From assembly GCF_000060345.1 (NCBI RefSeq), contig NC_008571.1, positions 2,914,001 to 2,978,000 of the forward strand: a DNA stretch of 64,000 nt, written 5' to 3'. Both the position numbers and the translations under genes were made by a program. Each line of letters begins with the position of its first letter. Position 1 is the first letter of the stretch. The DNA comes from Christiangramia forsetii KT0803. GTDB taxonomy: Bacteria; Bacteroidota; Bacteroidia; Flavobacteriales; Flavobacteriaceae. Shown piece by piece: positions 18,301 through 48,100 of the stretch. Below the pieces are notes generated by a model, which searched no databases, had not been told where the DNA came from, and saw nothing but the letters and a program-made list of their open reading frames with translations.

Positions 18301-18383
18301 TACTATAGTTATTTTAGAAAGGGATTATGAATTAAGGCATAAGTCCTTCGATAATCTAAATCCTCTCTTATTATTAAAATTTA

Positions 18384-33577: not shown

Positions 33578-33608
33578 TTGTATTATTAACTTTTAATTAG
33601 CATTTTTG
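33578..33608 (+). promoter_or_regulatory. Promoter of the first SusC/SusD locus
   Basis: TTG (33578-33580), a 20-nt spacer and CATTTTTG (33601-33608), one mismatch from TAnnTTTG. The same box and spacing recur before the other two SusC genes. Transcription should start at about 33613-33616, at the conserved leader GGCTAATTCAAA. Confidence 0.65.
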
Positions 33609-33612
33609 AAAA

Positions 33613-33634
33613 GGCTAATTCAAATTAAGTTAAA
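33613..33634 (+). promoter_or_regulatory. Conserved SusC 5' leader, copy 1
   Basis: GGCTAATTCAAA (33613-33624) begins 22 nt before the ATG. Copies 2 and 3 have the same 12-mer 23 nt before theirs. The motif lies where the mRNA 5' end is expected, so the whole untranslated leader may be only this element plus the A-rich initiation region. Confidence 0.6.
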
Positions 33635-36600
33635 ATGAAAGTAAAATTACGTAGTATTCTAACGCTTATACTGGCGTTAGTAGTGCAAATAAGTTTTGCA
33701 CAGGAAACAACCATTACCGGTACGGTATCAGGAGAAGACGGTCTCCCCCTGCCAGGTGTAAATGTCCTCAAAAAGGGAACTTCGACAGGTACACAAACGG
33801 ATTTTGATGGAAATTATTCCATTGAGGCAGCAGAAGGAGATATTCTTGTATTTTCATTTTTAGGAATGGAGTCCCAGGAATATACTATTGGGTCTGTAAA
33901 CATTGTAGATGTAACTATGGCTACCGACGCAGCATCTTTAGATGAAGTTGTGGTTGTAGCATACGGAACTTCTAGCCTAGAAGCTTTTACAGGTTCCGCC
34001 AGTGTTATAGGTTCCCAGGAGCTTGCATCGCGAAACGTTACATCACCTATCGCAGCCATAGAAGGTAAAGCAACCGGAGTTCAATTCACGTCTCCAGCCG
34101 GACCAGGTGATTCCCCAGGAATTGTAATAAGAGGTGTTGGTACCCTTAATGGCGATACCGACCCTTTATACATAGTGGACGGCATGCAATTTGAAGGAAG
34201 TTTAAGTTCTATCAACCAGGAAGACATTGCATCTTTCACAATCCTTAAGGATGCAGCATCTACTTCTTTATACGGTTCAAGAGCTGCTAACGGAGTTGTA
34301 ATAATTACAACGAAATCAGGAACTAAGGGGGAAATTAAAATGAGTGTTTCAGCTCAATCCGGCTTAGTATCTAACGGTATACCACGATATGACCAGGTTT
34401 CACCGGGAGAATATTACGAGGTAATGTGGGAGGCTCTTAAAAATTCAAGTGCGGGTGATGGTGATCCTGAATTTGCTAGTGCCAATATCTACAACCAGTT
34501 AGGTTACAACCCATTTAACGTTCCTAATGATCAAATTGTAGGCGTTAACGGTCAATTAAATCCAAATGCCGAGGTTATCTATCAAAGTTTAGATTGGTTT
34601 AATCAACTTCAGCAAACTGGATTGAGAACAAATTATAATATGAATGTTTCTGCCGGTGGTGAAGATCATACCGTATTTTTCTCGGCATCTTATTTAGATG
34701 AAGAGAGTTATGTAGTTACATCTGGTTTTGATCGTTTGACCGCAAGATTAAATGGGGAATTTGACGTGAACGACCGAATCACAATTGGAGGTAGCGCAAA
34801 TATTACCATTTCCGAAGCTGTTGGACCAAGTTCTGCAGGGACAGGAAGCATTGTAAATCCCTTTAGTTTCGCACAGGGTATTGGTTCTATTTATCCAGTG
34901 TACGTTAACGACCTACAGGGAAATATTGTAACAGATAATTTTGGTGCTCCTGTATTTGATAACGGTGAAGGATTCTCAGAATTTAATATTGGATCACGCC
35001 CAGTGAATCAGGGACGCCATGCACTTCAGGAACTACTATTAAATAACGAAAGCGATAGAGATAATACATATGGCTTTAGATTTTTTGGAGAGCTGGAGGT
35101 ATTTGACGGTCTAAACTTTAGATTGAATTACGGTAGAGATATCAATGAACTTTTTGAAAGAGAATACGAAAATGCTATCATCGGAGATGCTCAACCAGAC
35201 GGAAGACTTAGTGAAGATCGCGCTCGAAGAGAGGTAGAGAATTTCAATCAACTTCTTACCTACTCAAAAAGATTTGGTAAGCACAATCTTGACTTTACTG
35301 CTGGGCACGAAAGTTTTGAAAGATCTATTTCAAATCTTTCAGCTTTAGCTACCGTACAGGCAGCCAATGGAATCTATGAATTTGCAAACTTCTCAAACAT
35401 CGTTGACTTAGACGGTGCTACATTCGATAAGGCTATTGAAGGTTACTTTTTTAGAGCCAATTATAATTTTGATGATAAATACTATATAAGTGGTTCAATA
35501 AGACGTGATGGATCGTCTGTCTTCAATGCCGATAAAAGGTGGGGAACTTTTTATTCTGTAGGTGGATCCTGGAGAATAGACCAGGAAAACTTTATGGATG
35601 ATGTTTCTTTCATAGATAAATTAAAGCTGAGAGCTTCTTACGGAGAAGTGGGTAATGATGATCTTTTAGACAGCTATTTATCACAGGCGAGATTTTCCAT
35701 TACTTCAAATGCCGCAAGACCCGCAATACTTTTTACAGATATTGGAAATACAAACTTACAATGGGAAACAATTGAAAGCTTTGATGTTGCGCTTGAGTTT
35801 GGATTATTCAACAACTTCTTAGATGGTTCAATTGAATACTATAAGAAAAATTCTAGTGATCTGCTTTACAATTTACCGATTGCCCTAAGTAATGGTCTAA
35901 ATGAGTTTCCAGTTAATCTTGGAGATATGTACAATTCGGGTTGGGAATTTGCAGTTACCGGTCATTTAATGAACCAGAATGATTTTTTCTGGGACTTGAC
36001 CTTACAAGCTTCTACATTCAAAAATGAAATTACCTCTTTACCAGATCCATTTATTACCGGATCTAAGAGATGGGCAGCAGGACGTTCTAGATTCGATTTC
36101 TTTTTGTTAAGAACTGCGGGAGTAGACCCGGAGAATGGTGACCAATTATTCTTTTTATACGAGCAGGATGAAGACGGAGAAAGCGTACCTGTTAGAAATG
36201 CAGACGGTAGCATCCAGACTACAAATGACTGGCAGGAGACAGAAAGAGCTTATACCGGTGATTCCTCAATTCCAGATCTACTTGGCTCTGTGGCTAATAG
36301 CTTTAGATATAAAGGATTTAATTTAGATTTTCTGATTACCTATGGTATTGGTGGTAGTGTTCTTGATAATGCTTATGCTGATTTAATGCACAGCGGATCT
36401 TACGGTAGTTCTCTTCATCCTGATATTCTAAATGCGTGGAGACAACCCGGTGACATTACAGATGTACCAAGACTTGAAAATGGTAATCCTAATTTAGTTC
36501 GTACGCAATCAGATAGATTTATAACCGATGCTTCCTTTTGGTCTTTGAAGAATGTTAATTTAGGATACAATTTTGATAATAACACAACAGATGCTCTTGG

Positions 36601-36757
36601 GTTGGATGACCTCAGGATTTCAATTACAGGTGAAAACTTATACCTAAACAGCGAAAGAAAAGGATTAGATCCGCAATACAATTTGGCAGGAACAGCGCCA
36701 GGAGATGATTTCTCTCCAGCAAGAATAATTTCATTAGGCTTAAACCTATCTTTCTAA
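33635..36757 (+). CDS. SusC/RagA-family TonB-dependent outer-membrane transporter 1
   Basis: A 1040-aa TonB-linked beta-barrel that imports a bound nutrient across the outer membrane with its SusD lid. Visible parts are a signal peptide at 1-22 (cut after SFA), a carboxypeptidase-D-regulatory-like domain at about 25-100 with GLPLPGVNVLKKGTS and TQTDFDGNYSI, and the SusC signature DEVVVVAYG at 103-111. The plug follows (about 115-230, ASTSLYGSRAANGVVIITTK), then the barrel ending ..IISLGLNLSF. The next gene 18 nt on is its SusD partner. The pair is not next to glycoside hydrolases or sensors, so no substrate can be assigned. Its N-terminus is the most diverged of the three copies. Confidence 0.95.
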   Translation: MKVKLRSILTLILALVVQISFAQETTITGTVSGEDGLPLPGVNVLKKGTSTGTQTDFDGNYSIEAAEGDILVFSFLGMESQEYTIGSVNIVDVTMATDAASLDEVVVVAYGTSSLEAFTGSASVIGSQELASRNVTSPIAAIEGKATGVQFTSPAGPGDSPGIVIRGVGTLNGDTDPLYIVDGMQFEGSLSSINQEDIASFTILKDAASTSLYGSRAANGVVIITTKSGTKGEIKMSVSAQSGLVSNGIPRYDQVSPGEYYEVMWEALKNSSAGDGDPEFASANIYNQLGYNPFNVPNDQIVGVNGQLNPNAEVIYQSLDWFNQLQQTGLRTNYNMNVSAGGEDHTVFFSASYLDEESYVVTSGFDRLTARLNGEFDVNDRITIGGSANITISEAVGPSSAGTGSIVNPFSFAQGIGSIYPVYVNDLQGNIVTDNFGAPVFDNGEGFSEFNIGSRPVNQGRHALQELLLNNESDRDNTYGFRFFGELEVFDGLNFRLNYGRDINELFEREYENAIIGDAQPDGRLSEDRARREVENFNQLLTYSKRFGKHNLDFTAGHESFERSISNLSALATVQAANGIYEFANFSNIVDLDGATFDKAIEGYFFRANYNFDDKYYISGSIRRDGSSVFNADKRWGTFYSVGGSWRIDQENFMDDVSFIDKLKLRASYGEVGNDDLLDSYLSQARFSITSNAARPAILFTDIGNTNLQWETIESFDVALEFGLFNNFLDGSIEYYKKNSSDLLYNLPIALSNGLNEFPVNLGDMYNSGWEFAVTGHLMNQNDFFWDLTLQASTFKNEITSLPDPFITGSKRWAAGRSRFDFFLLRTAGVDPENGDQLFFLYEQDEDGESVPVRNADGSIQTTNDWQETERAYTGDSSIPDLLGSVANSFRYKGFNLDFLITYGIGGSVLDNAYADLMHSGSYGSSLHPDILNAWRQPGDITDVPRLENGNPNLVRTQSDRFITDASFWSLKNVNLGYNFDNNTTDALGLDDLRISITGENLYLNSERKGLDPQYNLAGTAPGDDFSPARIISLGLNLSF

Positions 36758-36775
36758 TAATAAAAAAATTACACT

Positions 36776-38425
36776 ATGTCATATAAAATAAAATATCTCT
36801 TATTGATATTTCTTTCGATGTCAATAACCTCTTGCGAGGAGGAATTTCTAGAAAGAAGACCCACAGATGCCATTTCGGCAACAGATGCCTTGGCAAATGA
36901 AGATAATATGCAGCTCATATTAGACGGGATACACCGTGGTCTATACTCCCAGTCCCAGACTGTTTTTCCAGGCGGTGATACTGGCAGAGCTAATAACCAC
37001 TATTGGGTACCGCTGGGTGATAATTTAGCGGGTGACCTCATTCATTCTGCAAATGCGAACAATTTATCCTGGCGTTCTGCCATGCAATGGAATGAGCACA
37101 CACAGCCCACTTCCTTAACAACAGAAATATTTTGGTATCACCGCTACAATATTATTCTACATGCAAATTTGTTAATTAATGAAATAGAAAGTGGAACATT
37201 AACTGAAACAGCGAGACTTAAACATATCCTGGGCCAGGCGTACACTTATAGAGCATATGCATATTTATCTTTAGTGCAGCATTATGGAAGAGGTTATTTA
37301 ATCGGTGACCCGGCTTCTGACCCTGGGGTTCCAATATTATTCTCATCTGAAACACCATTTACAAGTCAACCAAGATCTACTGTACAGGAAGTTTATACTC
37401 AGATTGGGTCAGATTTAGATGCAGCGATCAGCTCGTTTGAAGGTAGCGAGCCTCCAGGGGTTGGAGGTGCTGCAGCAAAAGCACAGTTAAGTGTTGATGT
37501 AGCTCAAGGTTTAAAAGCACGTTGGGCACTTTCCAAAGGAGACTGGGCTACAGCAGCAGAAGCCGCTGCGAAAGCAAGAGAAGGCTACGCATTATTAGGT
37601 GAAGATGAATGGAAATCAGGTTTTAATTCTAATGAACTTTCAGAAGTAATCTGGGGGAGCAATGTGATTGCTGCCGAAACAACCTTCTTTAGATCTTATT
37701 TCTACTTAGCCAGCAACACATTTAATGGTAGCCAGGTTAGAAACAATCCGAAAATAGCAGATCGCAGGATGGTGGATGCTATTCCAGAATCAGACTACAG
37801 AAAAGATGTCTTTTTACCGGACGCACCAAATTCAAATACTTCTGCCGCGAATGGTAATGGAGGATGGGAAAATAATACAAACCCATTGTACGAAACAGAG
37901 GAGGAATTTGATGCTGCGGTAGCTGAAATTAAAAGCACATATGGCTTAACATCCGGGCATAATACTCATCCATATATGCATTTTAAATTGAAAAATGCAA
38001 ATCCTGGAAGTATAGATCCAGATGATGTTATATATATGAGAGCTTCAGAAATGTATTTGATCGAAGCAGAAGCAAAATTAATGATGGGAGATCTTGCTGG
38101 CGCTAAAGAAGCTTTGAAGCCTTTAGCTGAAGCAAGGGACGAGGAATGGAGTGCTGATGAATTCAATACTGAAGAAAGTTTCTTCGAACATATAAAGTTT
38201 CAATGGCGACTGGAAATGTGGGGAGAAGGCTTTGGGTATACCAACCACATTAGATGGGATGAAGGTATAGACCATGGTGCCAATGGAGGTTCTGGAGCAT
38301 CTGAAGTTCTTTATCAGGATGCTTTTCAAATGGACAAACCATCCACAAATGATGATTGGATTTTTAAAATTCCTCAGGCAGAAATTAACGCCAATCCAAA
38401 TTTAAGTCCATCAGACCAGAATTAA
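36776..38425 (+). CDS. SusD/RagB-family surface lipoprotein 1
   Basis: A 549-aa nutrient-binding lipoprotein that caps the SusC barrel. The signal peptide ends at lipobox Cys20 (SITSC), followed by EEEF, an acidic stretch that fits the lipoprotein export signal directing proteins to the cell surface. The typical SusD start LERRPTDAISATDAL, TPR-like helices (ILGQAYTYRAYAYLSLVQHYG) and the C-terminal IPQAEINANPNLSPSDQN are present. This is the classical SusD/RagB type with a C-terminal 'IP..E...NP.L.QN' pattern, unlike SusD 2 and 3. It is followed by a hairpin terminator. Confidence 0.94.
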   Translation: MSYKIKYLLLIFLSMSITSCEEEFLERRPTDAISATDALANEDNMQLILDGIHRGLYSQSQTVFPGGDTGRANNHYWVPLGDNLAGDLIHSANANNLSWRSAMQWNEHTQPTSLTTEIFWYHRYNIILHANLLINEIESGTLTETARLKHILGQAYTYRAYAYLSLVQHYGRGYLIGDPASDPGVPILFSSETPFTSQPRSTVQEVYTQIGSDLDAAISSFEGSEPPGVGGAAAKAQLSVDVAQGLKARWALSKGDWATAAEAAAKAREGYALLGEDEWKSGFNSNELSEVIWGSNVIAAETTFFRSYFYLASNTFNGSQVRNNPKIADRRMVDAIPESDYRKDVFLPDAPNSNTSAANGNGGWENNTNPLYETEEEFDAAVAEIKSTYGLTSGHNTHPYMHFKLKNANPGSIDPDDVIYMRASEMYLIEAEAKLMMGDLAGAKEALKPLAEARDEEWSADEFNTEESFFEHIKFQWRLEMWGEGFGYTNHIRWDEGIDHGANGGSGASEVLYQDAFQMDKPSTNDDWIFKIPQAEINANPNLSPSDQN

Positions 38426-38453
38426 CTATAAAATTATATTTTTGAATTACCCA

Positions 38454-38494
38454 AAAAGTCTCCAACTTACTAAAAGTCTGGAGACTTTTCTATT
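38454..38494 (+). terminator. Intrinsic terminator of SusCD locus 1
   Basis: An 11-bp stem, AAAAGTCTCCA (38454-38464) and TGGAGACTTTT (38479-38489), with a 14-nt loop and a T-rich tail. It lies 29 nt after the SusD 1 stop. Confidence 0.82.
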
Positions 38495-38985
38495 TTAAAA
38501 GACTTGTAAAATTTAAACAAAGTAAATACTCACAAACCACATTGCCCTCTTCCTTCTCAAAATCAACAATAAAAAGAGGATAAACTTTATTATTTTAATT
38601 AAATCCCACCAGCCCTCCAAATTGAACCTGGCATATTACTCTATTTTCATATTTTGTGGCTAAATTAAATTTTTCTCCTATTTATCCCGTGCATAAGATT
38701 TCAGTTTCACTGGTCAAAATATTTCGTTCGAAATAATTTTTAAACATTCTCTAAGAAATAAATTGGATACACCTTCATTTGCTAATTTTTAGAAAAAAAA
38801 TCACCAAATAAAACTTTTTATTACTACAATTTCTATTAATAAACAAAACTCATAGAAATAATTGGTTTTTTTTGTGAAATAGTAAATATTAAAGTAACAA
38901 TAGAGTCATTTGTTAAAAAAATTATACTATTAAACTGATTATCAAATACATGTATTTCTAACAAAAAATTAACGTGCGATTAAGT
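38495..38985. other. AT-rich intergenic stretch without recognised features
   Basis: About 490 bp between the SusCD 1 terminator and the SusC 2 promoter. It is strongly AT-rich with frequent stops in every frame. I saw no RNA gene, repeat shared with the rest of the window, or coding remnant. Confidence 0.6.
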
Positions 38986-39016
38986 TTGTATTAACCTTTA
39001 ATTCTGCTCATTTTTG
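38986..39016 (+). promoter_or_regulatory. Promoter of the second SusC/SusD locus
   Basis: TTG (38986-38988), a 20-nt spacer and CATTTTTG (39009-39016), with the same -7 box and the same spacing as copy 1. TATTAAC after the TTG and TTTAATT in the spacer are also close to copy 1. Confidence 0.65.
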
Positions 39017-39021
39017 GGGTT

Positions 39022-39044
39022 GGCTAATTCAAATAAATTTAAAA
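39022..39044 (+). promoter_or_regulatory. Conserved SusC 5' leader, copy 2
   Basis: GGCTAATTCAAA (39022-39033) followed by TAAATTTAAAA to the ATG. It differs from copy 3 at one base over 23. Confidence 0.65.
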
Positions 39045-42000
39045 ATGAAAGCAAAATTTAGTAGTATTTTAACGCTATTACTGGCGTTTGTTGTGCAAAT
39101 AACCTTTGCACAAGAGCAAACGATTACCGGTATGGTAACCGATTCTGATGGGTTACCGTTGCCTGGTGTAAACGTGCTCGTAAAAGGAACCTCAACAGGT
39201 GTTCAAACAGACTTTGACGGAAACTATTCCATTAATGCCAATGTTGGCGATGTTTTGGCGTTTTCTTTCGTTGGTCTTAAAACTGCAGAATATACTGTTG
39301 CAAACAACACTGAAATTGATGTAGTACTGGAAGCAGACGCAGCGCAATTAGATGAAGTGGTGGTTACCGCTCTGGGAATTAAAAGAGAAAAGAAATCATT
39401 GGGGTATGCTACACAATCTGTAGAAGGCTCTGAAGTTTCTGATGTTCCTACTACAAACTTTATGAACTCACTTTCTGGTAAGGTGGCTGGTTTAAATATT
39501 AAATCTTCAGGTACGCCAGGCGGATCTTCTAATATTGTAATTAGGGGAAACTCCTCTTTAACTGGTAATAACCAGGCTCTTTTTGTTGTAGATGGAACAC
39601 CTATTAGTAACAGTAACTCTAACACATCCGATCAGACTAGAGGTAGGGGTGGTTATGATTATGGTAATGCCGCAATGGACATCAACCCAAATGACATCGC
39701 TTCTATTAACGTATTAAAAGGTGCAGCTGCATCAGCATTGTATGGAGCAAGAGCCGCAAATGGTGTGGTAATTATTGAGACTAAAAAAGGGAGTAAAGGT
39801 AAAGGAATTGGTATTTCTATTAACTCTACCGTTACTACAACCCATGTAGATGATACTACTTTACCAGTTTATCAAGATCAATATGGAGCTGGGTATGGGC
39901 AATATTACCCTTCAGATGATGGTTATTTTCTTCTGTATGATATAGATGGTGACGGTAATCTTGATGAAACTACTCCTTTTACGGAAGATGCTTCTTTTGG
40001 TGCACCATTTGATCCTAATAGATTGATATATCAATGGAATTCAATATACCCACAATTAGAGGGAACTTTTCAGCAGGCGCAACCATGGACTGCAGGTGCC
40101 ACTACTCCAAGTTCTATCTGGAACATGGGGGTTACAACAATAAACTCTGTTGCATTAGATGGTGGGACAGATAAAAGTTCATTTAGAGTAAGTGGGACTC
40201 ATTTAGATCAAAAAGGTGCGTTACCTAACAGTTCTATCAAAAGAAATACTTTAAAATTTAGCGGGACACATGACTTTAATGATAAATTTAGTGCTGCCGC
40301 CAATATTACCTATACTAGGACAGATGGTAAAGGACGTTATGGTACAGGTTATGATGCAGAAAACGTGATGCAGTCTGCTAGACAATGGTGGCAGAGAAAC
40401 GTAGATTTTCAAGAACAAAGAGATGCCTATTTTGCAACCGGAGAAAATATTACCTGGAACCCGAATGGACCAGATAATTTATCTCCGATCTATTTTGACA
40501 ATCCATATTTTACAAGATATGAGAATTTTCAAACAGATAATAGAAATAGATATTTTGGTAACGTTAACTTGACATATGAGATTAACGATGTATTTAGTGT
40601 ATTAAGCCGTTTTACTTTTGATACTTTTGAAGAGTTGAGAGAAGAGAGAAGAAATGTTGGAAGTACCGGAGTTTCTGGTTATTCTAGAATCAATAATCGT
40701 GATTCAGAATTTAATTATGACCTAATCCTTAATTTTAATACAGATATTGCTGACGGCTTGAATCTTGATGGTAACTTAGGTATGAATTTGAGAAGAAACT
40801 ATCGAGAATTTATAGATGCTTCAACCAATGGTGGTTTAAACGCTCCAGGATTCTACGCACTAAGCAACAGTGCTTCTGCACTTCAGCCACCTAACGAATA
40901 CGAAGCAACCAGAATGCTAGATGGTTTTTATGCTCGTGCAAGCTTAGGATATTTAGACACTTATTTTGTAGATGCTACTATAAGAAGAGACCGTTCTTCT
41001 ACGCTTCCTAAAGAAAACAATACTTTTTATTATCCTTCAATTTCAGGAAACGTAATTGTATCAAACCTTTTGGATGCTAATTGGCTTAACTTTGCTAAAC
41101 TTAGAGCAAATTATGCTGAAGTTGGTAACGATACAGATCCATATCGTGTTTTTAATACTTATACAATTAGTACTCCATTTGCAGGGAATGGGATTGCTTC
41201 AAATAATTCACAGTTAGCAAACATAAACCTAAAACCGGAACGTACTAAATCATATGAGGTTGGTATCGAAACCAATATTTTAGATCGAAGAATTGGTATT
41301 GATGCTTCCTATTATAATATTCAAACAGAAGATCAAATTACACCAGTACCGGTTTCAAATGCTACAGGTTTCAACACTGTATTATTAAATGCAGGGACGA
41401 TTGAAAATAAAGGACTTGAAGTATCTTTAACATTAAACCCTGTTAGAACGGAAGATTTCAACTGGAATATCACTGCCAACTGGGCAAAGAATGAGAGTGA
41501 AGTAATTGAACTACGTGAAGGAATCGAAAACCTGGAATTAGCTTCTCTACAAGGTGGTGTTTCTATAAATGCTACTCCTGGAGTTGCTTATGGCGCCATA
41601 AGAGGTACAGATTATGTATATGATGATGCAGGAAACCGCGTTGTAAACTCTAGAGGTTACTATCAAGTGACTTCTAATAGCAACAACATTATTGGAAATA
41701 TCCAGCCAGACTGGACAGGAGGTATTCAAAACAGCTTACAGTATAAAGATTTCACATTAAGTTTCCTTATAGATATGCAGAAAGGTGGAGATATTTTCTC
41801 CCTTGATACTTGGTACGGTTTCGCAACTGGACTATATGACCAGACTGTTGGAACCAACGATCTAGGAAATCCAATGAGAAATCCACTATCACAGGGTGGA
41901 GGTATAATTCTTCCAGGTGTTACTGCAGATGGACAACCAAACAATACAAGGGTAGATTTTTCTAATTTTGGGAATCCTTATGGTTATGCCAGAGATGCAA

Positions 42001-42263
42001 ATAAAGGTCATGTATATGATGCAGGTTTTGTAAAATTGAGAGAAGCTAGTCTAACTTATAATTTCAGCGAAAACTTAATAGACCAATTACCTCTTACCAA
42101 CGCCTCCCTTTCAATTATAGGAAGGAACCTTTGGATCATAGACAAAAATGTTCCTTACAGTGATCCTGAAGCAGGATTAAGTTCAGGTAACATTCAGGGA
42201 TACCAATCAGGGGCATATCCAAACTTCAGAGAGATTGGTGCAAGCGTGAAACTTAACTTTTAA
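39045..42263 (+). CDS. SusC/RagA-family TonB-dependent outer-membrane transporter 2
   Basis: A 1072-aa TonB-dependent transporter. The signal peptide (1-22, cut after TFA) is identical in sequence to that of copy 3. It is followed by the carboxypeptidase-D-like domain (LPLPGVNVLVKGTSTGVQTD), the signature DEVVVTALG at 103-111, a plug with ASALYGARAANGVVIIETK, and a barrel ending ..GASVKLNF. The repeat-like GDGNLDE segment near residue 300 resembles a calcium-binding loop (DIDGDGNLDE). SusD 2 starts 5 nt after its stop, so the two are translationally coupled. The substrate is unknown. Confidence 0.95.
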   Translation: MKAKFSSILTLLLAFVVQITFAQEQTITGMVTDSDGLPLPGVNVLVKGTSTGVQTDFDGNYSINANVGDVLAFSFVGLKTAEYTVANNTEIDVVLEADAAQLDEVVVTALGIKREKKSLGYATQSVEGSEVSDVPTTNFMNSLSGKVAGLNIKSSGTPGGSSNIVIRGNSSLTGNNQALFVVDGTPISNSNSNTSDQTRGRGGYDYGNAAMDINPNDIASINVLKGAAASALYGARAANGVVIIETKKGSKGKGIGISINSTVTTTHVDDTTLPVYQDQYGAGYGQYYPSDDGYFLLYDIDGDGNLDETTPFTEDASFGAPFDPNRLIYQWNSIYPQLEGTFQQAQPWTAGATTPSSIWNMGVTTINSVALDGGTDKSSFRVSGTHLDQKGALPNSSIKRNTLKFSGTHDFNDKFSAAANITYTRTDGKGRYGTGYDAENVMQSARQWWQRNVDFQEQRDAYFATGENITWNPNGPDNLSPIYFDNPYFTRYENFQTDNRNRYFGNVNLTYEINDVFSVLSRFTFDTFEELREERRNVGSTGVSGYSRINNRDSEFNYDLILNFNTDIADGLNLDGNLGMNLRRNYREFIDASTNGGLNAPGFYALSNSASALQPPNEYEATRMLDGFYARASLGYLDTYFVDATIRRDRSSTLPKENNTFYYPSISGNVIVSNLLDANWLNFAKLRANYAEVGNDTDPYRVFNTYTISTPFAGNGIASNNSQLANINLKPERTKSYEVGIETNILDRRIGIDASYYNIQTEDQITPVPVSNATGFNTVLLNAGTIENKGLEVSLTLNPVRTEDFNWNITANWAKNESEVIELREGIENLELASLQGGVSINATPGVAYGAIRGTDYVYDDAGNRVVNSRGYYQVTSNSNNIIGNIQPDWTGGIQNSLQYKDFTLSFLIDMQKGGDIFSLDTWYGFATGLYDQTVGTNDLGNPMRNPLSQGGGIILPGVTADGQPNNTRVDFSNFGNPYGYARDANKGHVYDAGFVKLREASLTYNFSENLIDQLPLTNASLSIIGRNLWIIDKNVPYSDPEAGLSSGNIQGYQSGAYPNFREIGASVKLNF

Positions 42264-42268
42264 AAAAA

Positions 42269-43696
42269 ATGATTATGAAAAAATATATAATAGCACTCCT
42301 TGCTCTAGTGACCTTATGGTCTTGCCAGAGTGATGAAGATTATGAGGATCTAAATAGGGATCCTAAAAACCCTACGCAGGTATCAGAAGCCTTTTTATTT
42401 ACTTCTGCAACCGTTAGCCTAGGTGATCAACTAGCCACTCCTAATGTAAATTTAAATGTATTTAGATTTTTGGCACAATACCTTTCGACAACTACATATT
42501 TGGATGAACCTAATTATAATTTGACGAATCGTAATATTCCACAGAATCATTGGTCTGAAATTTACAGGGATGTAATTTTTGATCTTCAAAATGCCAAGAC
42601 AAATATTATGAATAATGCAGATTTATCTGAAACTGAAAAGTCTGCGCGTATTGGACAGGCTGAAGTTTTAGAAGTATATGCATGGCATGTATTGGTAGAT
42701 TCCTTTGGTGATATTCCTTATACCGAAGCGCTGGATGCACAACAATTTCCACTTCCTGCTTATGATGACGCTTCAACAATTTATGGAGACCTAATTTCAA
42801 GGTTAGATTCTACCACTGCTGATCTTGAAGCCGGACAAGGTTTCACATCTGCAGATGTGATTTATGGTGGAAATATGGATAAATGGGTTAAATTTGCAAA
42901 CTCTTTAAAACTAAGACTTGCAATGAGACTCTCAGATGTTAATCCATCACTTTCACAGAGTGCCGCAGAATCTGCAATTTCTGGAGGTATATTCACTTCA
43001 AATGATGATAGCGCATTAATCGCCTATCAAGGATCATTCCCTAACACTAATCCACTATGGGAGGATCTTGTGCAAAGTGGAAGATCTGATTATCTAGCTG
43101 CAAATACTATTGTGGATTATTTAAATGATCTTAATGATCCTAGAAGAATGTATTATTTTGATGATAATTTGAGTGGTGGTTATGTTGGAGGTATCTATGG
43201 AGGAAGTAATTCTTTTCCATTTTTTACCCATATAGGAGAAGATTTTAGAGATCCAACACATCCGGGAATCTTTCTTGATTATGCTGAAGTAGAATTTTAT
43301 TTAACTGAAGCTGTACAAGATGGTTACTCTGCACCAGGATCTGCTGAATCTCATTATAACGCTGCAATTACTGCATCTATAATGTATGCAGGTGGTACTC
43401 AAGCAGATGTTGATAGTTATCTTTCTCAATCCTCGGTAGCCTACGACGGTACAGAATACAGATTAGGATTCCAGTTCTGGATTGCGATGTATGATAATCC
43501 ATTTCAAGGATGGTCTGTTTGGAGAAAATATGATGCTCCAGAGCTTAATGTAGCTGCAGATTCAGGAAGACCTGTTCCACTAAGATATACTTATCCAGTA
43601 AACGAACAGAACCTTAATCCAACCAGCTATGAAGCCGCATCTTCCGCAATTGGTGGAGACGATCAGCAAACCCCAATTTTCTGGGACGTTGAATAA
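42269..43696 (+). CDS. SusD-like surface lipoprotein 2
   Basis: A 475-aa lipoprotein with lipobox Cys19 (LWSC), then QSDEDYED, a good match to the acidic surface-export signal of flavobacterial lipoproteins. The body has the SusD-like_2 style: DLNRDPKNPTQVSEAF after the anchor, AYAWHVLVDSFGDIPYTEAL in the middle and a C-terminal RLRY-type PVPLRYTYPVNEQNLNP. Two in-frame ATGs (42269 and 42275) are possible, and the second gives the cleaner signal peptide (MKKYIIALLALV). It pairs with SusC 2, and a third lipoprotein gene follows 38 nt on. Confidence 0.93.
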   Translation: MIMKKYIIALLALVTLWSCQSDEDYEDLNRDPKNPTQVSEAFLFTSATVSLGDQLATPNVNLNVFRFLAQYLSTTTYLDEPNYNLTNRNIPQNHWSEIYRDVIFDLQNAKTNIMNNADLSETEKSARIGQAEVLEVYAWHVLVDSFGDIPYTEALDAQQFPLPAYDDASTIYGDLISRLDSTTADLEAGQGFTSADVIYGGNMDKWVKFANSLKLRLAMRLSDVNPSLSQSAAESAISGGIFTSNDDSALIAYQGSFPNTNPLWEDLVQSGRSDYLAANTIVDYLNDLNDPRRMYYFDDNLSGGYVGGIYGGSNSFPFFTHIGEDFRDPTHPGIFLDYAEVEFYLTEAVQDGYSAPGSAESHYNAAITASIMYAGGTQADVDSYLSQSSVAYDGTEYRLGFQFWIAMYDNPFQGWSVWRKYDAPELNVAADSGRPVPLRYTYPVNEQNLNPTSYEAASSAIGGDDQQTPIFWDVE

Positions 43697-43734
43697 TTGC
43701 TTTTTAACTGTGAATAAATTATAAAATATAGAAA

Positions 43735-44874
43735 ATGAAAAAATATTTAAAACTTGCAAGCTTAAGCGTACTCATCGCCGTAGGTTTGACATCATGTGAA
43801 GCTGATGATGATGGATATCGTGACGATCCTACTGAGATAGGAGGTTATGCTACTTTATCTGACAGATCTATTTCCCGTTTCGACAGAAACTCTGATCTTA
43901 ACATCAACTTTTTCGCCACTGAAGCTGTAAGCGTGGAAAGTGTGGAGATTATCCAGGGCGGATCAGTGGTTGGAAACGCAACTGTATCCGGGGAAACAGC
44001 TACTTTTAATACATCAATCTTAGGGGATTTTACATTTCCAGATGATGACGGAGTGGATCAACAAACCGGATCTTATCCTATTAGAATAAGAACAACTTAT
44101 TCCAATGGTGAAGTTTCTGAAGATCCCTTTACTGTAGGCGTAGAAAAAGTAATCTCTTTAGGTGATAATGCCACAGAGACTACTATGGACAGTTTATCTG
44201 CTGTGACTTTAAACTATGAAGTTTCTACATTCTCTGCTAACGTAGATGATGTTATGTTAGAATTAAAAAGAAACAGTGATGGAACTTTTATAGACAGCGA
44301 CGTAGATGTAGCTACAGACGGAGGTTCTGTAATGCTAAGCGAAACCAACTTTGCTGATTTAAATCTTGGAGTTAACGATACTCTTTTTTATAAATTAACA
44401 GCTACAAGTGGCAACTTAACTGATATAACGAGCGGACAGGTTGCTATTACTCCTAAAGCTTTTACTAATTCAAATTCTGTTACATTATCAGATGATCTTA
44501 CCATGAACCAGCTTGATCTGGCTACAGGTGCTATCTCGGGTGATGGTGAGGACAACGGAGCAGATATTCGTTTTCTTGACCCTACAGGATTTGAAGTTAT
44601 TGATGGCTCAGATGTATCTTTTGTAAAACTCGATGAGGATTTTGATGCCGATGTATTAACTGCAAGAGCAGCTTATGAAGATGGAGATACTATAACTTCT
44701 GCAACAGACCTTGAAAATGGAGACATATTTGTTTATAAGGATACTAGAGATGTTGAAGATGAAGATGGTAATATAGAAACTCAAAACTTCTACGGTATAT
44801 TTAGAATAGGAAGTGTTAGTGTAGTTGATGGTAATGCAGTTAGCTTTGACATTGATTACTCTGATGGATTTTAA
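43735..44874 (+). CDS. Surface lipoprotein accessory to SusCD 2
   Basis: A 379-aa lipoprotein: signal peptide with lipobox Cys21 (GLTSC) followed by EADDD, another acidic surface-export signal. The rest is acidic, beta-rich and poor in Cys, with repeated Ig-like or fibronectin-like sandwich features (SYPIRIRTTYSNGEVSEDPF, LFYKLTATSGNLTDI). I recognise no named family. Its place after SusC 2/SusD 2, where SusE/SusF-type binding proteins often sit, suggests that it helps to bind the ligand of that system. It is the last gene before a terminator and has no counterpart in loci 1 and 3. Confidence 0.85.
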   Translation: MKKYLKLASLSVLIAVGLTSCEADDDGYRDDPTEIGGYATLSDRSISRFDRNSDLNINFFATEAVSVESVEIIQGGSVVGNATVSGETATFNTSILGDFTFPDDDGVDQQTGSYPIRIRTTYSNGEVSEDPFTVGVEKVISLGDNATETTMDSLSAVTLNYEVSTFSANVDDVMLELKRNSDGTFIDSDVDVATDGGSVMLSETNFADLNLGVNDTLFYKLTATSGNLTDITSGQVAITPKAFTNSNSVTLSDDLTMNQLDLATGAISGDGEDNGADIRFLDPTGFEVIDGSDVSFVKLDEDFDADVLTARAAYEDGDTITSATDLENGDIFVYKDTRDVEDEDGNIETQNFYGIFRIGSVSVVDGNAVSFDIDYSDGF

Positions 44875-44900
44875 GAAAAGTCATTCTTAGATTTTATTTC

Positions 44901-44929
44901 AAAACCACCCCTAACCGGGTGGTTTTTTT
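44901..44929 (+). terminator. Intrinsic terminator of SusCD locus 2
   Basis: A 10-bp stem, AAAACCACCC (44901-44910) and GGGTGGTTTT (44917-44926), with loop CTAACC and a T-run. The same stem and loop end locus 3 at 49794-49822. Confidence 0.9.
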
Positions 44930-45137
44930 ATATAAATATTTGCTTACCTAGCATTTAATATATCTTCATTAATTCATCCTAAAGAATATTATTTCAGAAT
45001 TAATAGATAGGAAAACTGCTGAACTGAAAGAAAATTATTAAGAATATAAAATATTGATGTTTTCAATTTACTCATCAGTGATTCGTGCAAATGATTTAAA
45101 ATTATTTAGTTTACAGCAATTTTTAACATATATTTTA
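44930..45137. other. Intergenic stretch before SusC 3
   Basis: About 200 AT-rich bases between the terminator and the SusC 3 promoter. A short TTAACATAT motif recurs twice near its end (45123 and 45145 region). No gene was seen. Confidence 0.55.
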
Positions 45138-45167
45138 TTGATCATTAACATATTTATAGCATTTTTG
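45138..45167 (+). promoter_or_regulatory. Promoter of the third SusC/SusD locus
   Basis: TTG (45138-45140), a 19-nt spacer and CATTTTTG (45160-45167), again the non-consensus C at the first position of the -7 box. Confidence 0.65.
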
Positions 45168-45172
45168 ATGCT

Positions 45173-45195
45173 GGCTAATTCAAACAAATTTAAAA
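45173..45195 (+). promoter_or_regulatory. Conserved SusC 5' leader, copy 3
   Basis: GGCTAATTCAAA (45173-45184) followed by CAAATTTAAAA to the ATG. It starts 5 nt after the -7 box, as in copy 2. Confidence 0.65.
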
Positions 45196-48100
45196 ATGAA
45201 AGCAAAATTTAGTAGTATTTTAACGCTATTACTGGCGTTTGTGGTGCAAATTACCTTTGCGCAGCAACAAACGATCACCGGTACGGTTACAGACGAGGAT
45301 GGTCTGCCTCTGCCTGGAGTAAACGTTTTAATTAAAGGTACCAATACGGGTACTCAAACAGATTTCGACGGTAATTACTCTATTGGAGCAGAGCAGGGTG
45401 ATATCCTTTCTTTCTCTTTTGTGGGATTACAAACCTCAGAGGTCACCGTTGGATCTTCCAACCAAATTAATGTCACCATGCAGGGAGATGCAGCTCAACT
45501 TGATGAAGTTGTAGTTACTGCTCTTGGAGTTCGAGCGACACCGCGGTCTGTTACTTATGCAGTAGAAGGTGTAACAGCTGAAGAAATTGAAAATACCGGG
45601 GAAACCAACCTGGTAAATTCGCTTTCCTCTAAAGCAGCTGGTGTAAATGTAGTAAGTGCATCTGGTTCTGTTGGGGCTTCTTCCAACATAAGGATTAGAG
45701 GGAACACTTCCATTAACAGATCAAACAGCCCATTATTTATTGTAGATGGGGTGCCAATTGACAACTCGAGTTCAGGAAATGGTGTTGGGGATGTAGACCA
45801 ATCGAACAGAGCGATCGATATTAACCAGAATGATATTGCTTCTATCGATATTTTAAAAGGTACTGCCGCTCAAACACTTTATGGGTTGAGAGCTGCTAAT
45901 GGAGTTGTGATAATCACCACCAAAAAAGGTCAGTCCGGAGCACCTACCGTAAATGTTTCTTCCACTATCCAGTTTAGTGAAGTAAATCAACTTCCAGATT
46001 TACAACAAGAATATGCCCAGGGAAGACCTGTAGAAGGGCAACCTACATATAGAGGCCCTGAAACTGGCGAAGGTTTTAGCTGGGGACCAAGGATATCTTC
46101 TTTGGAATATGATGGGGACACTTCTTACCCTTACAGCAGATTTGGAAGACTTGTACCTGAAGGGGAAGGTAATGGGATGCCTGCGATGGCATTTGATAAA
46201 TCAGATTTTTTCGTGACTGGTGTGTTGAATGAACAAAACGTATCCGTTAGGGGAGGTTCTGAAAAAGTTAAATATTATATCTCCGGAGGCAAGCTAAATC
46301 AAACTGGTGTTGCTCCGAAAGAAGAATTTGATAGAAGATCTTTTAGAGGTGATATAAGTGCATCTCTTACAGATAATTTTGAAGTTTCTGCCAGTGGTAA
46401 CTATATTAATTCAGGGGGGCGTCGTGTTCAAAGAGGATCTAATGTTTCCGGTATTATGCTTGGGCTTTTAAGAGCCACCCCTTCGTTTGATAATGGTAAT
46501 GGTCTTGATGGTAGAGATGCTGCTAATACTCCTAGTAGCTACGAATTACCTGATGGCAGGCAACGAAGCTACAGAGGCGGGATTTATGACAACCCATACT
46601 GGACCGTAGCTAAGAATCCTTCATTCGACGATGTAAAACGTTTTATTGGTAGATTATCTTTTGAATATAAGCCTTTCGATTGGGCAACTGTTCAAGGTAC
46701 TTATGGATATGATCAGTATTCTGATGTGAGAAAACAGGGTGTTGATATTAATAGTGCTGGGAACCCTCAGGGTCAGGTTTATGATTCAAACATTTTTAGT
46801 GAAGATATCAATACGCAATTACTGGTACTTTTTAATAAGAATATTTCTGAAAATATAACCTTCAATAGTATTCTTGGATATGATGGATTTAGAACAGAAA
46901 GTTTATTACGCGATGTTTTAGGAAATGGATTAACCATTCCCGGTTTCTTCAATGTTTCAAATACTGCCAGCCAAGCTACTTCAGAAAGTTTATTGAATAG
47001 AAGAAATCTAGACGCCTTTCTTTCAGAGGTGAAATTTGGGATCAATGAAACCCTATTTATTAATGGTGCCTTTAGAAATGACTGGTCTTCTACCCTTCCG
47101 GAGGATGACAACAGCTTTGTATCTTATAGCGCAGGGGTTTCTTTTGTATTCACTGAACTATTGAATAGTGGCTTTATGAATTACGGAAAACTTAGAGGTT
47201 CATATGGTAAAACTGGTAACGATGCACCAGCTTTTGGTACATTAACCTATTATAACGCAGCAACAACTGGAGGAGATGGGTTTATTGATGCAAATCAGTT
47301 TCCGATCTTTTCTACGGTAGCCTTTGAAAGATCAGCACAACAGGGTAATCCAAATATTCGTCCAGAGGTAACTAAAGAATTCGAGGTAGGTGCGGAATTT
47401 AGATTTTGGGATTCCAGAATTAAGTTAGACGTCACTTATTACGATAAAGAAACAACCGATCAAATTATACCTGTTGACCAACCGGCTGTTACCGGATTTA
47501 CTTCGCGAATTGTTAATGCTGGAGTAATTTCTAACAAGGGTTGGGAAGCTCTTTTAGGTATTAAGCCAATCCAGACAGAAAATTTCACATGGGATATTGA
47601 CGCCAACTTTTCAACTTATGAAAATATTGTAGAAGAGTTAGCTGAGAACGTAGAGTCTATTACCCTCGCTGGATTTACATCAACTTCGTCCAGGGTTATC
47701 GCTGGTGAACCTTACGGAGCCATTTTTGGATCTAGGTTTGACAGAAATGAAAATGGAGAAGTACTAATAGGTGATAATGGTTTCCCTTTGGTAAATCCGG
47801 AAGACGGTGTTATAGGAGATCCTACACCAGATTTTAATATTGGTGTAAGAAATACCTTTTCATATAAGAACTTTTCATTATCTGCTTTGCTAGATATACG
47901 TGAAGGTGGCGATGTATGGTGTGGTACTTGTGGGATTATAGATTACTTTGGTACTTCCCAAAAAACAGCCGAGCAACGTGAAATTACAGATTTCGTGTTC
48001 GATGGAGTAAATGCGAATACTGGAGAAACAAACACTCAAGAGGTAGCATTGGCCAATCCTGAAAACGGACTTGGTTCATATCGATGGGTACGTTACGGTT

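Follow-up and report, generated by a model that had tools for sequence, protein, structure and literature searches.

A shared 5' leader of SusC genes in Christiangramia forsetii KT0803 as a probable target site of small RNAs in the Flavobacteriaceae

Introduction

SusC/SusD systems perform much of the polysaccharide uptake in marine Bacteroidota and, to our knowledge, their control has been studied mostly at the level of transcription. The detailed case of control by small RNA (sRNA) that was found for SusC comes from gut Bacteroides. Here, a stretch of 64,000 nucleotides (nt) from Christiangramia forsetii KT0803 (the window; NC_008571.1, C1:2914001-2978000 of a genome consisting of one contig of 3,798,465 bases) was analysed, in which three susC genes carry the same 12-nt motif, GGCTAATTCAAA, at the predicted 5' end of their messenger RNA (mRNA). 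This shared leader is probably the target site of trans-acting sRNAs that would control a subset of the SusC mRNAs.

In enterobacteria, the sigma-E-dependent sRNAs RybB and MicA repress the mRNAs of outer-membrane proteins. In Bacteroides thetaiotaomicron, the FopS sRNA family acts together with the protein RbpB, and FopS represses SusC, as stated in excerpts of that report (Nat Commun 2025, PMC11697453). The same excerpts describe DonS, a cis-encoded sRNA of a polysaccharide utilization locus (PUL) of Bacteroides (PMC11697453). Within the Flavobacteriaceae, the trans sRNA Rfp18 has been described in Flavobacterium psychrophilum (excerpts of PMC9723704). No published description of a system of SusC leaders and sRNAs was found among the titles and abstract openings of one open-licence library.

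Results

The SusC leader in the window

Exact copies of GGCTAATTCAAA are found three times in the window, all on the + strand, at 33613, 39022 and 45173, whereas 100 dinucleotide shuffles of the window contained it 0.05 times on average and once at most (0/100 reached three). All three downstream genes code for SusC-type TonB receptors (Pfam, TIGR04056). The original prediction had placed the motif 22-23 nt upstream of the ATG of three SusC genes behind an identical -7 box, and both coordinates and spacing agree with this: the distance from GGC to ATG is 22, 23 and 23 nt for copies 1, 2 and 3, respectively, and CATTTTTG precedes each motif (33601-33608, 39009-39016 and 45160-45167). The 23-nt leaders of copies 2 and 3 indeed differ by a single base, a T/C exchange directly 3' of the motif. 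Only the exact motif is informative, because with up to 2 mismatches allowed the window contains no excess of it (13 observed vs 11.6 expected).

In excerpts of the F. psychrophilum study, the sigma-A -7 box TAnnTTTG spans positions -12 to -5 (PMC9723704), and CATTTTTG is one position off this F. psychrophilum consensus. The same geometry predicts transcription starts at 33613, 39021 and 45172, that is, at the first G of the motif in copy 1 and one base upstream of that G in copies 2 and 3. The features concerned are:

33601..33608, + strand: CATTTTTG, predicted sigma-A -7 box of susC copy 1 (box geometry from PMC9723704)
33613..33634, + strand: 5' leader of susC copy 1, in which GGCTAATTCAAA forms the predicted first bases of the mRNA and the proposed sRNA-binding site
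33635..36757, + strand: susC copy 1, 1040 amino acids, with carboxypeptidase-regulatory-like and plug domains
39009..39016, + strand: CATTTTTG, predicted sigma-A -7 box of susC copy 2
39022..39044, + strand: 5' leader of susC copy 2 with GGCTAATTCAAA
39045..42263, + strand: susC copy 2, 1072 amino acids
45160..45167, + strand: CATTTTTG, predicted sigma-A -7 box of susC copy 3
45173..45195, + strand: 5' leader of susC copy 3 with GGCTAATTCAAA
45196..48375, + strand: susC copy 3, 1059 amino acids

Distribution of the motif in genome, genus and family

The complete genome holds 10 exact copies of GGCTAATTCAAA and none of the reversed control pattern. Four of them are SusC leaders with an ATG 22-24 nt 3', namely the three of the window (genome positions 2947613-2959173) and one further copy, L009, at 3057092. 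By our own count, 20 SusC genes of this genome lie above the family cut-off. As the original prediction required, the motif also lies upstream of one further SusC gene of the genome (L009) and of SusC genes of relatives; 16 of the 20 own SusC genes have no exact motif. Approximate matches carried little signal (50 one-mismatch sites vs 24 for the control), and among 20 of these 50 sites that were examined, L276 alone resembled a further sRNA locus.

The 24 Christiangramia genomes contain 153 copies of GGCTAATTCAAA vs 10 of the reversed control (summed from the per-genome table). In the family, the 12-mer is present in 184 of 249 genomes and the reversed control in about 84 (hand count); 15 genomes from other families have 0-1 copies each. 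When named genomes were scanned for the leader followed by ATGAAA, with the exact motif demanded, at least 118 stretches were obtained. Within the 80 listed there are 81 matches, 77 of which begin with the same type of SusC signal peptide (the exceptions are L163, L184, L192 and L193); the genera among the matches listed are Salegentibacter, Salinimicrobium, Gillisia, Zunongwangia, Leeuwenhoekiella, Dokdonia, Nonlabens, Psychroflexus, Aequorivita, Gelidibacter and Mesonia.

In and around the genus, 119 occurrences (10 from the own genome plus 29 plus 80; L041 and apparently L065-L067 are from outside the genus) were sorted by script into 39 SusC leaders (ATG 22-24 nt 3'), 16 coding copies and 64 that are neither. 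Among the latter, a terminator-like hairpin follows TTTGAATTAGCC in 21 (L105 and L119 carry one on the other strand too) and only GGCTAATTCAAA in 15, leaving 28 others. Such a hairpin thus lies near 36 of 64 non-leader noncoding copies on either strand, many of them orthologues, vs 11 of 232 random noncoding positions, which were scored on one strand, so that two strands would roughly double the latter figure. The recurrent contexts align into four groups, termed G1, G2, G4 and G5. After relabelling, 69 copies from outside the genus comprised 13 leader-like copies (12 with a SusC signal peptide; L331 without), 34 coding copies, 3 antisense copies with a terminator and 19 others, among which were the first loci of a further group, G6.

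Unlinked loci with the reverse complement of the leader

The original prediction had proposed a search for an antisense or trans sRNA complementary to the leader, and unlinked loci resembling noncoding RNA genes and carrying its reverse complement were found. The names given below to genes next to G1, G4 and L003 are readings of their sequence only. G1 lies between a hybrid histidine-kinase-like gene and an lpxK-like gene and consists of TATATAGTTTGAATTAGCCA, an A-rich segment and a terminator; the own-genome copy is at 2822653. The G1 model matched 22 of 24 genus genomes at E 1.6e-14 or better (15 of the 22 are model members); of the remaining two, G004 has no match, and in G023 there is a fragment at the end of a contig. 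The seed is exact in 21/22, including 6 of the 7 non-model genomes. A sigma-54-type box, TGGYAY-N4/5-TTTG, lies 43-48 nt upstream in 22/22 cases vs 8/800 random 110-nt windows, the expression for the box having been composed after the alignment was seen. Box and seed are kept in four genomes of three genera outside Christiangramia (L290, L291, L293 and L306). These four were the only exact seeds among 29 extra-genus R1 loci examined (7 further matches were left out); L312 has a one-base variant, and the other 24, with neither, were rejected as chance.

G2 (own genome 839053) shows a promoter-like TTTTGTTAAAT...TATnTTTAA, then a 12-bp closing stem and T-rich DNA. Double compensatory changes occur at 7 of 19 predicted pairs, all within the 12-bp stem. 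The G2 model matched 14 of 24 genus genomes at E 3.9e-10 or better (10 model members) and 5 more weakly, with an exact seed in 13 of these 19. In L488-L491 the outer stem is kept and the seed has diverged to TTTGTTTTAGCC or TTTGTGTTAGCC; no leader matching the diverged seeds of L487-L491 was found among the loci examined.

G6 loci occur in other genera and have the layout TGNAAY, 17-22 nt, GTCTAT, a variable outer stem, mostly TTTATAATTTATTTGAATTAGCC, and then a terminator. The pattern GTCTATN{24,54}TTTGAATTAGCC was found in 26 of 395 family genomes from 21 genera, the control pattern in none. Of these matches, 22 (17 genera) were judged genuine, and the script sees a terminator in 21 of the 22. 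Four matches were rejected: L396 and L414 are coding, L401 has no terminator, and L408 lies inside an open reading frame of 151 codons without the upstream box, despite a terminator after the seed. L359, L321 and L388 are further G6 cases from three more genera, without an exact GTCTAT. TGNAAY-N17..22-GTCTAT was present at 22/22 G6 loci vs 6/266 other GTCTAT sites, with an expression composed after the loci had been seen. Promoters of extracytoplasmic function (ECF) sigma factors are reported with a CGT box in excerpts of PMC9723704, and the two G6 boxes resemble an ECF promoter.

Two single loci of the own genome have a similar arrangement. In L003 (1501-1512; C1:2399117), a gene reading as an outer-membrane beta-barrel receptor has its stop codon 6 nt before the antisense seed, and a terminator follows the seed; L003 is a candidate sRNA derived from a 3' untranslated region (UTR). 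L276 (C1:817699) has ATTGAATTAGCC followed by a terminator, with one seed base changed, and is a further candidate sRNA. In G4 and G5, the leader-like strand lies upstream of a terminator. G4 is a leader-like GGCTAATTCAAATTTGAATT just 5' of the terminator in the 3' UTR of a gene reading as the large subunit of ribonucleotide reductase (L010, 1501-1512, and ten orthologues). In G5 (L055, L061, L072, L094, L105 and L119) the leader-like motif lies within TTGAATT..AATTCAA, 5' of a terminator and 3' of protein genes. As a guess, G4 and G5 could be sRNA decoys. An Rfam scan of the leader and sRNA loci returned only sub-threshold matches to unrelated families.

Complementarity and co-variation of leader and sRNA

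In the own genome, the contiguous complement is 18 nt between G2 and the L009 leader, 19 nt between L003 and copy 3, 19 nt (including one G-U) between L003 and copy 2, and 13 nt between G1 and copy 3. Duplex energies of G1, G2 and L003 with all four own leaders had z-scores of -3.9 to -8.0 against shuffled sRNA, and L276 duplexes were 3.8-5.8 standard deviations below shuffled sRNA. The best of 13 SusC 5' regions without the motif remained behind the weakest motif leader for G2 (-19.1 vs -26.9), L003 (-21.5 vs -26.4) and L276 (-12.9 vs -17.8).

Co-variation was assessed in 24 genomes of 19 genera, each of which has a verified SusC leader as well as a G6-type locus; G228, whose 'leader' is the sRNA's own complement, and the second leader of G125 were left out. 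The contiguous complement spans 18-26 nt in 14/24 genomes. With one genome per genus, an sRNA and its own leader share a mean complement of 19.3 nt vs 17.0 nt with swapped leaders, a value reached in 15 of 50,000 permutations, and in the 12 nt beyond the core 9.74 positions match the own leader vs 8.59 a swapped one (4 of 50,000); the permutation assumes independent genera, and these are not fully independent. The pattern is clearest in two instances: in genome G320 the leader is 1 nt shorter and the sRNA seed (21 nt) is also 1 nt shorter, and in genomes G067, G168, G192 and G334 the leader ...AAATTAATTTAA is matched by seeds reading ATTAATTTG. Two leader types coexist, each with its own complementary sRNA loci.

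Constraint and hairpins in the first codons

The near-identity of copies 2 and 3 was said to extend through the signal-peptide codons, synonymous sites included. Identity between the two genes is 92% in codons 1-24 and 72% directly thereafter. Among codons for the same amino acid, 18/22 are identical in codons 1-24 vs 14/31, 12/34, 38/86, 27/57 and 90/177 in later segments. Conservation at synonymous sites is not uniform along the gene and falls after about codon 24. In the 39 leaders, codon identity given the same amino acid was 0.91 in codons 1-8, 0.51 in 9-16, 0.72 in 17-24 and 0.43-0.49 afterwards; codons 9-16 are conspicuous in leader type 1 only (0.74, vs 0.53 in type 2). Two hairpins, HP1 and HP2, lie in this region:

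33659..33680, + strand: HP1 of copy 1, signal-peptide codons 9-16 (CTAACGC/GCGTTAG)
33683..33701, + strand: HP2 of copy 1, codons 17-23 (GTGCAAA/TTTGCAC)
39069..39090, + strand: HP1 of copy 2
39093..39111, + strand: HP2 of copy 2
45220..45241, + strand: HP1 of copy 3
45244..45262, + strand: HP2 of copy 3

The minimum-energy folds of the four own SusC mRNAs all contain both hairpins. Across 122 distinct sequences, standard pairs make up 91.5% in HP1, with 34 double-change cells, vs maxima of 51% and 21 for slid versions, and 0/500 shuffles reach this. HP2 has 90.4% standard pairs vs a slid maximum of 64%; it is backed by pairing and not by co-variation, because slid versions give up to 25 double-change cells vs 7 only in HP2 itself. 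Codons 10 and 14, both within HP1, change together, the combination being ACG-GCG in 58 of 98 distinct sequences, ACG-GTG (G-U) in 6, ACA-GCG (mismatch) in 1, ACA-GTG in 25 and others in 8 (Fisher p 1.5e-15, inflated by shared ancestry). The G-U state is commoner than the mismatch, which fits RNA better than DNA. HP1 and HP2 belong to the same constrained 5' region as the leader. Elsewhere in the window, Rfam identified an S4-Flavobacteria ribosomal protein leader at 18323-18356 (- strand, 46.3 bits), which is unrelated to the SusC leaders.

Discussion

The leader, the conserved loci, their complementarity and co-variation and the hairpins are present at the sequence level, and we infer from them that the sRNAs are transcribed and pair with the leader in the cell. 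The SusC mRNA would begin at, or one base before, GGCUAAUUCAAA. The sRNAs from unlinked loci would bear UUUGAAUUAGCC, followed by an intrinsic terminator or held inside a structured loop. Their duplex with the leader would span 12 to 26 nt and in some genomes extend to the bases just ahead of the start codon or into it. Such a duplex would most likely keep ribosomes from loading and reduce SusC synthesis, a direction of effect suggested by analogy with Bacteroides FopS. Different sRNA lineages with different promoters, sigma-54-like (G1), sigma-A-like (G2) and ECF-like (G6), would reach the same site, and 3' UTRs of other mRNAs may be a further source of sRNAs (L003). The nucleotide-level constraint suspected in the original prediction, in the form of a translation or sRNA target site, is well supported at the sequence level by the genus- and family-wide leader, the unlinked reverse-complement loci and the co-variation between leader and sRNA.

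Several observations weigh against control of the leader by sRNAs. Many copies of the motif are due to chance: 34/69 of the family-wide set are coding even after relabelling, 16/119 in and around the genus are coding and 28/119 were unclassed by the script (10 of the 28 are G2 loci), and of the own-genome copies, L004 is coding whilst none of the explanations fits L002. The margin of G1 is slight (best motif-less SusC 5' region -18.5 vs weakest motif leader -18.9), part of its seed is predicted within a weak helix, and one G1 locus (L464) has a single seed mismatch. Under stricter filters, the own genome was the only one of 249 in the family with G2, and the G2 homologues L487-L491 have two seed changes and L486 one. 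The complement is 15-17 nt in 9/24 genomes and 12 nt in G125, and the leader is moderately accessible in the predicted fold, with the motif unpaired at a mean probability of 0.52-0.69.

Alternatively, pairing of the same sRNAs with the leader might activate or protect the SusC mRNA instead of repressing it. A duplex at what is predicted to be the very 5' end might protect the mRNA against decay, and deletion of Rfp18 in F. psychrophilum reduced its target mRNA (excerpts of PMC9723704); we nevertheless consider activation unlikely, as the duplex in many genomes ends a few nt from the AUG and would hide the ribosome site, and FopS represses SusC (excerpts of PMC11697453). Very unlikely in our judgement is a stand-alone element for translation initiation or mRNA stability, with no trans RNA and with unrelated reverse-complement copies. 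It would suit an A/U-rich leader directly 5' of the AUG, first 8 codons that are also A-rich and conserved, and flavobacterial mRNAs without Shine-Dalgarno sequences (excerpts of PMC9723704), but it fails to predict the unlinked loci resembling noncoding RNAs or the co-variation over 19 genera, and the other 16 own SusC genes above the cut-off do without the exact motif.

Two further explanations concern DNA rather than RNA. A site at +1 to +12 for a transcription regulator of this SusC subset would account for a motif that sits at the predicted transcription start and is invariant amid varying flanks, in a scan that required the exact motif. It is nonetheless highly improbable: the other recurrent copies adjoin terminators or sit in structured loci and not at promoters, and the co-variation continues, in antisense register, beyond the 12-mer into the tail of the leader. 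Recent gene conversion, which the original prediction had offered, or duplication of the 5' end among SusC paralogues would match the drop in identity between copies 2 and 3 after codon 24. We give it hardly any credence, since the same constraint on leader and codons is seen in many genera, two leader types coexist with their own complementary sRNA loci and the changes in HP1 are compensatory. As sole cause it is contradicted, because the conservation spans genera; a local exchange between copies 2 and 3 may still have occurred.

Beyond regulation of the leader by sRNAs, a wider reading, on which our judgement is evenly balanced, is that of a family-wide circuit of the Flavobacteriaceae, in which unrelated sRNA lineages with differing promoters have converged on an invariant 12-nt site at the start of SusC mRNAs. 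In this circuit 3' UTRs would take part on both sides, with the antisense seed of L003 on one and G4 and G5 as decoys soaking up sRNAs on the other, and the coding hairpins would form a second layer of RNA control. sRNAs from stress-type promoters reading a shared leader would let the cell lower a set of large outer-membrane transporters together. Enterobacteria turn down their porins in a comparable joint fashion. The analysis supplies exact loci, seeds and naturally compensating pairs for a marine model, and raises the question of how such sRNAs would act here, given that the genome search yielded no RRM chaperone.

Comparison with known systems

The nearest known system, FopS/RbpB, seems to work alike, the common trait being an sRNA complementary to the translation-initiation region of SusC, here read from complementarity and co-variation only. 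FopS has a single-stranded 5' seed directly before the terminator; the seed is just 5' of the terminator in L003 and G1 and lies inside a longer structure in G2 and G6. The systems differ in the bacterial family, in the sigma-54- and ECF-like promoters seen here, and in that the target lies at the predicted mRNA 5' end and the seed often in a structured loop. In addition, no protein of the RbpB type was found in the Christiangramia genome (RRM_1, PF00076: 0 matches at E 0.001; the Bacteroides ihuae control matched). Rfam gave no FopS match for 19 loci and unrelated sub-threshold matches only (E up to 5 and 1), the presence of a FopS model in Rfam 15 itself being unverified.

DonS shares with the proposed system the sRNA control of SusC/PUL expression, whereas G1, G2 and G6 loci are far from SusC leaders or on other contigs and not adjacent to the PUL that they would target. 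Rfp18 is likewise a conserved trans sRNA of Flavobacteriaceae with several related predicted targets, but these are metalloproteases (compared by description, from excerpts of PMC9723704). The possible likeness to RybB and MicA would be that an envelope-type alternative sigma factor drives sRNAs pairing near the 5' end of mRNAs for outer-membrane porins or transporters; compared by description, these sRNAs belong to an unrelated phylum, and the sigma factors are assigned here by motif only. The SusC leader and its putative sRNAs may be a variant of the sRNA control of outer-membrane protein mRNAs.

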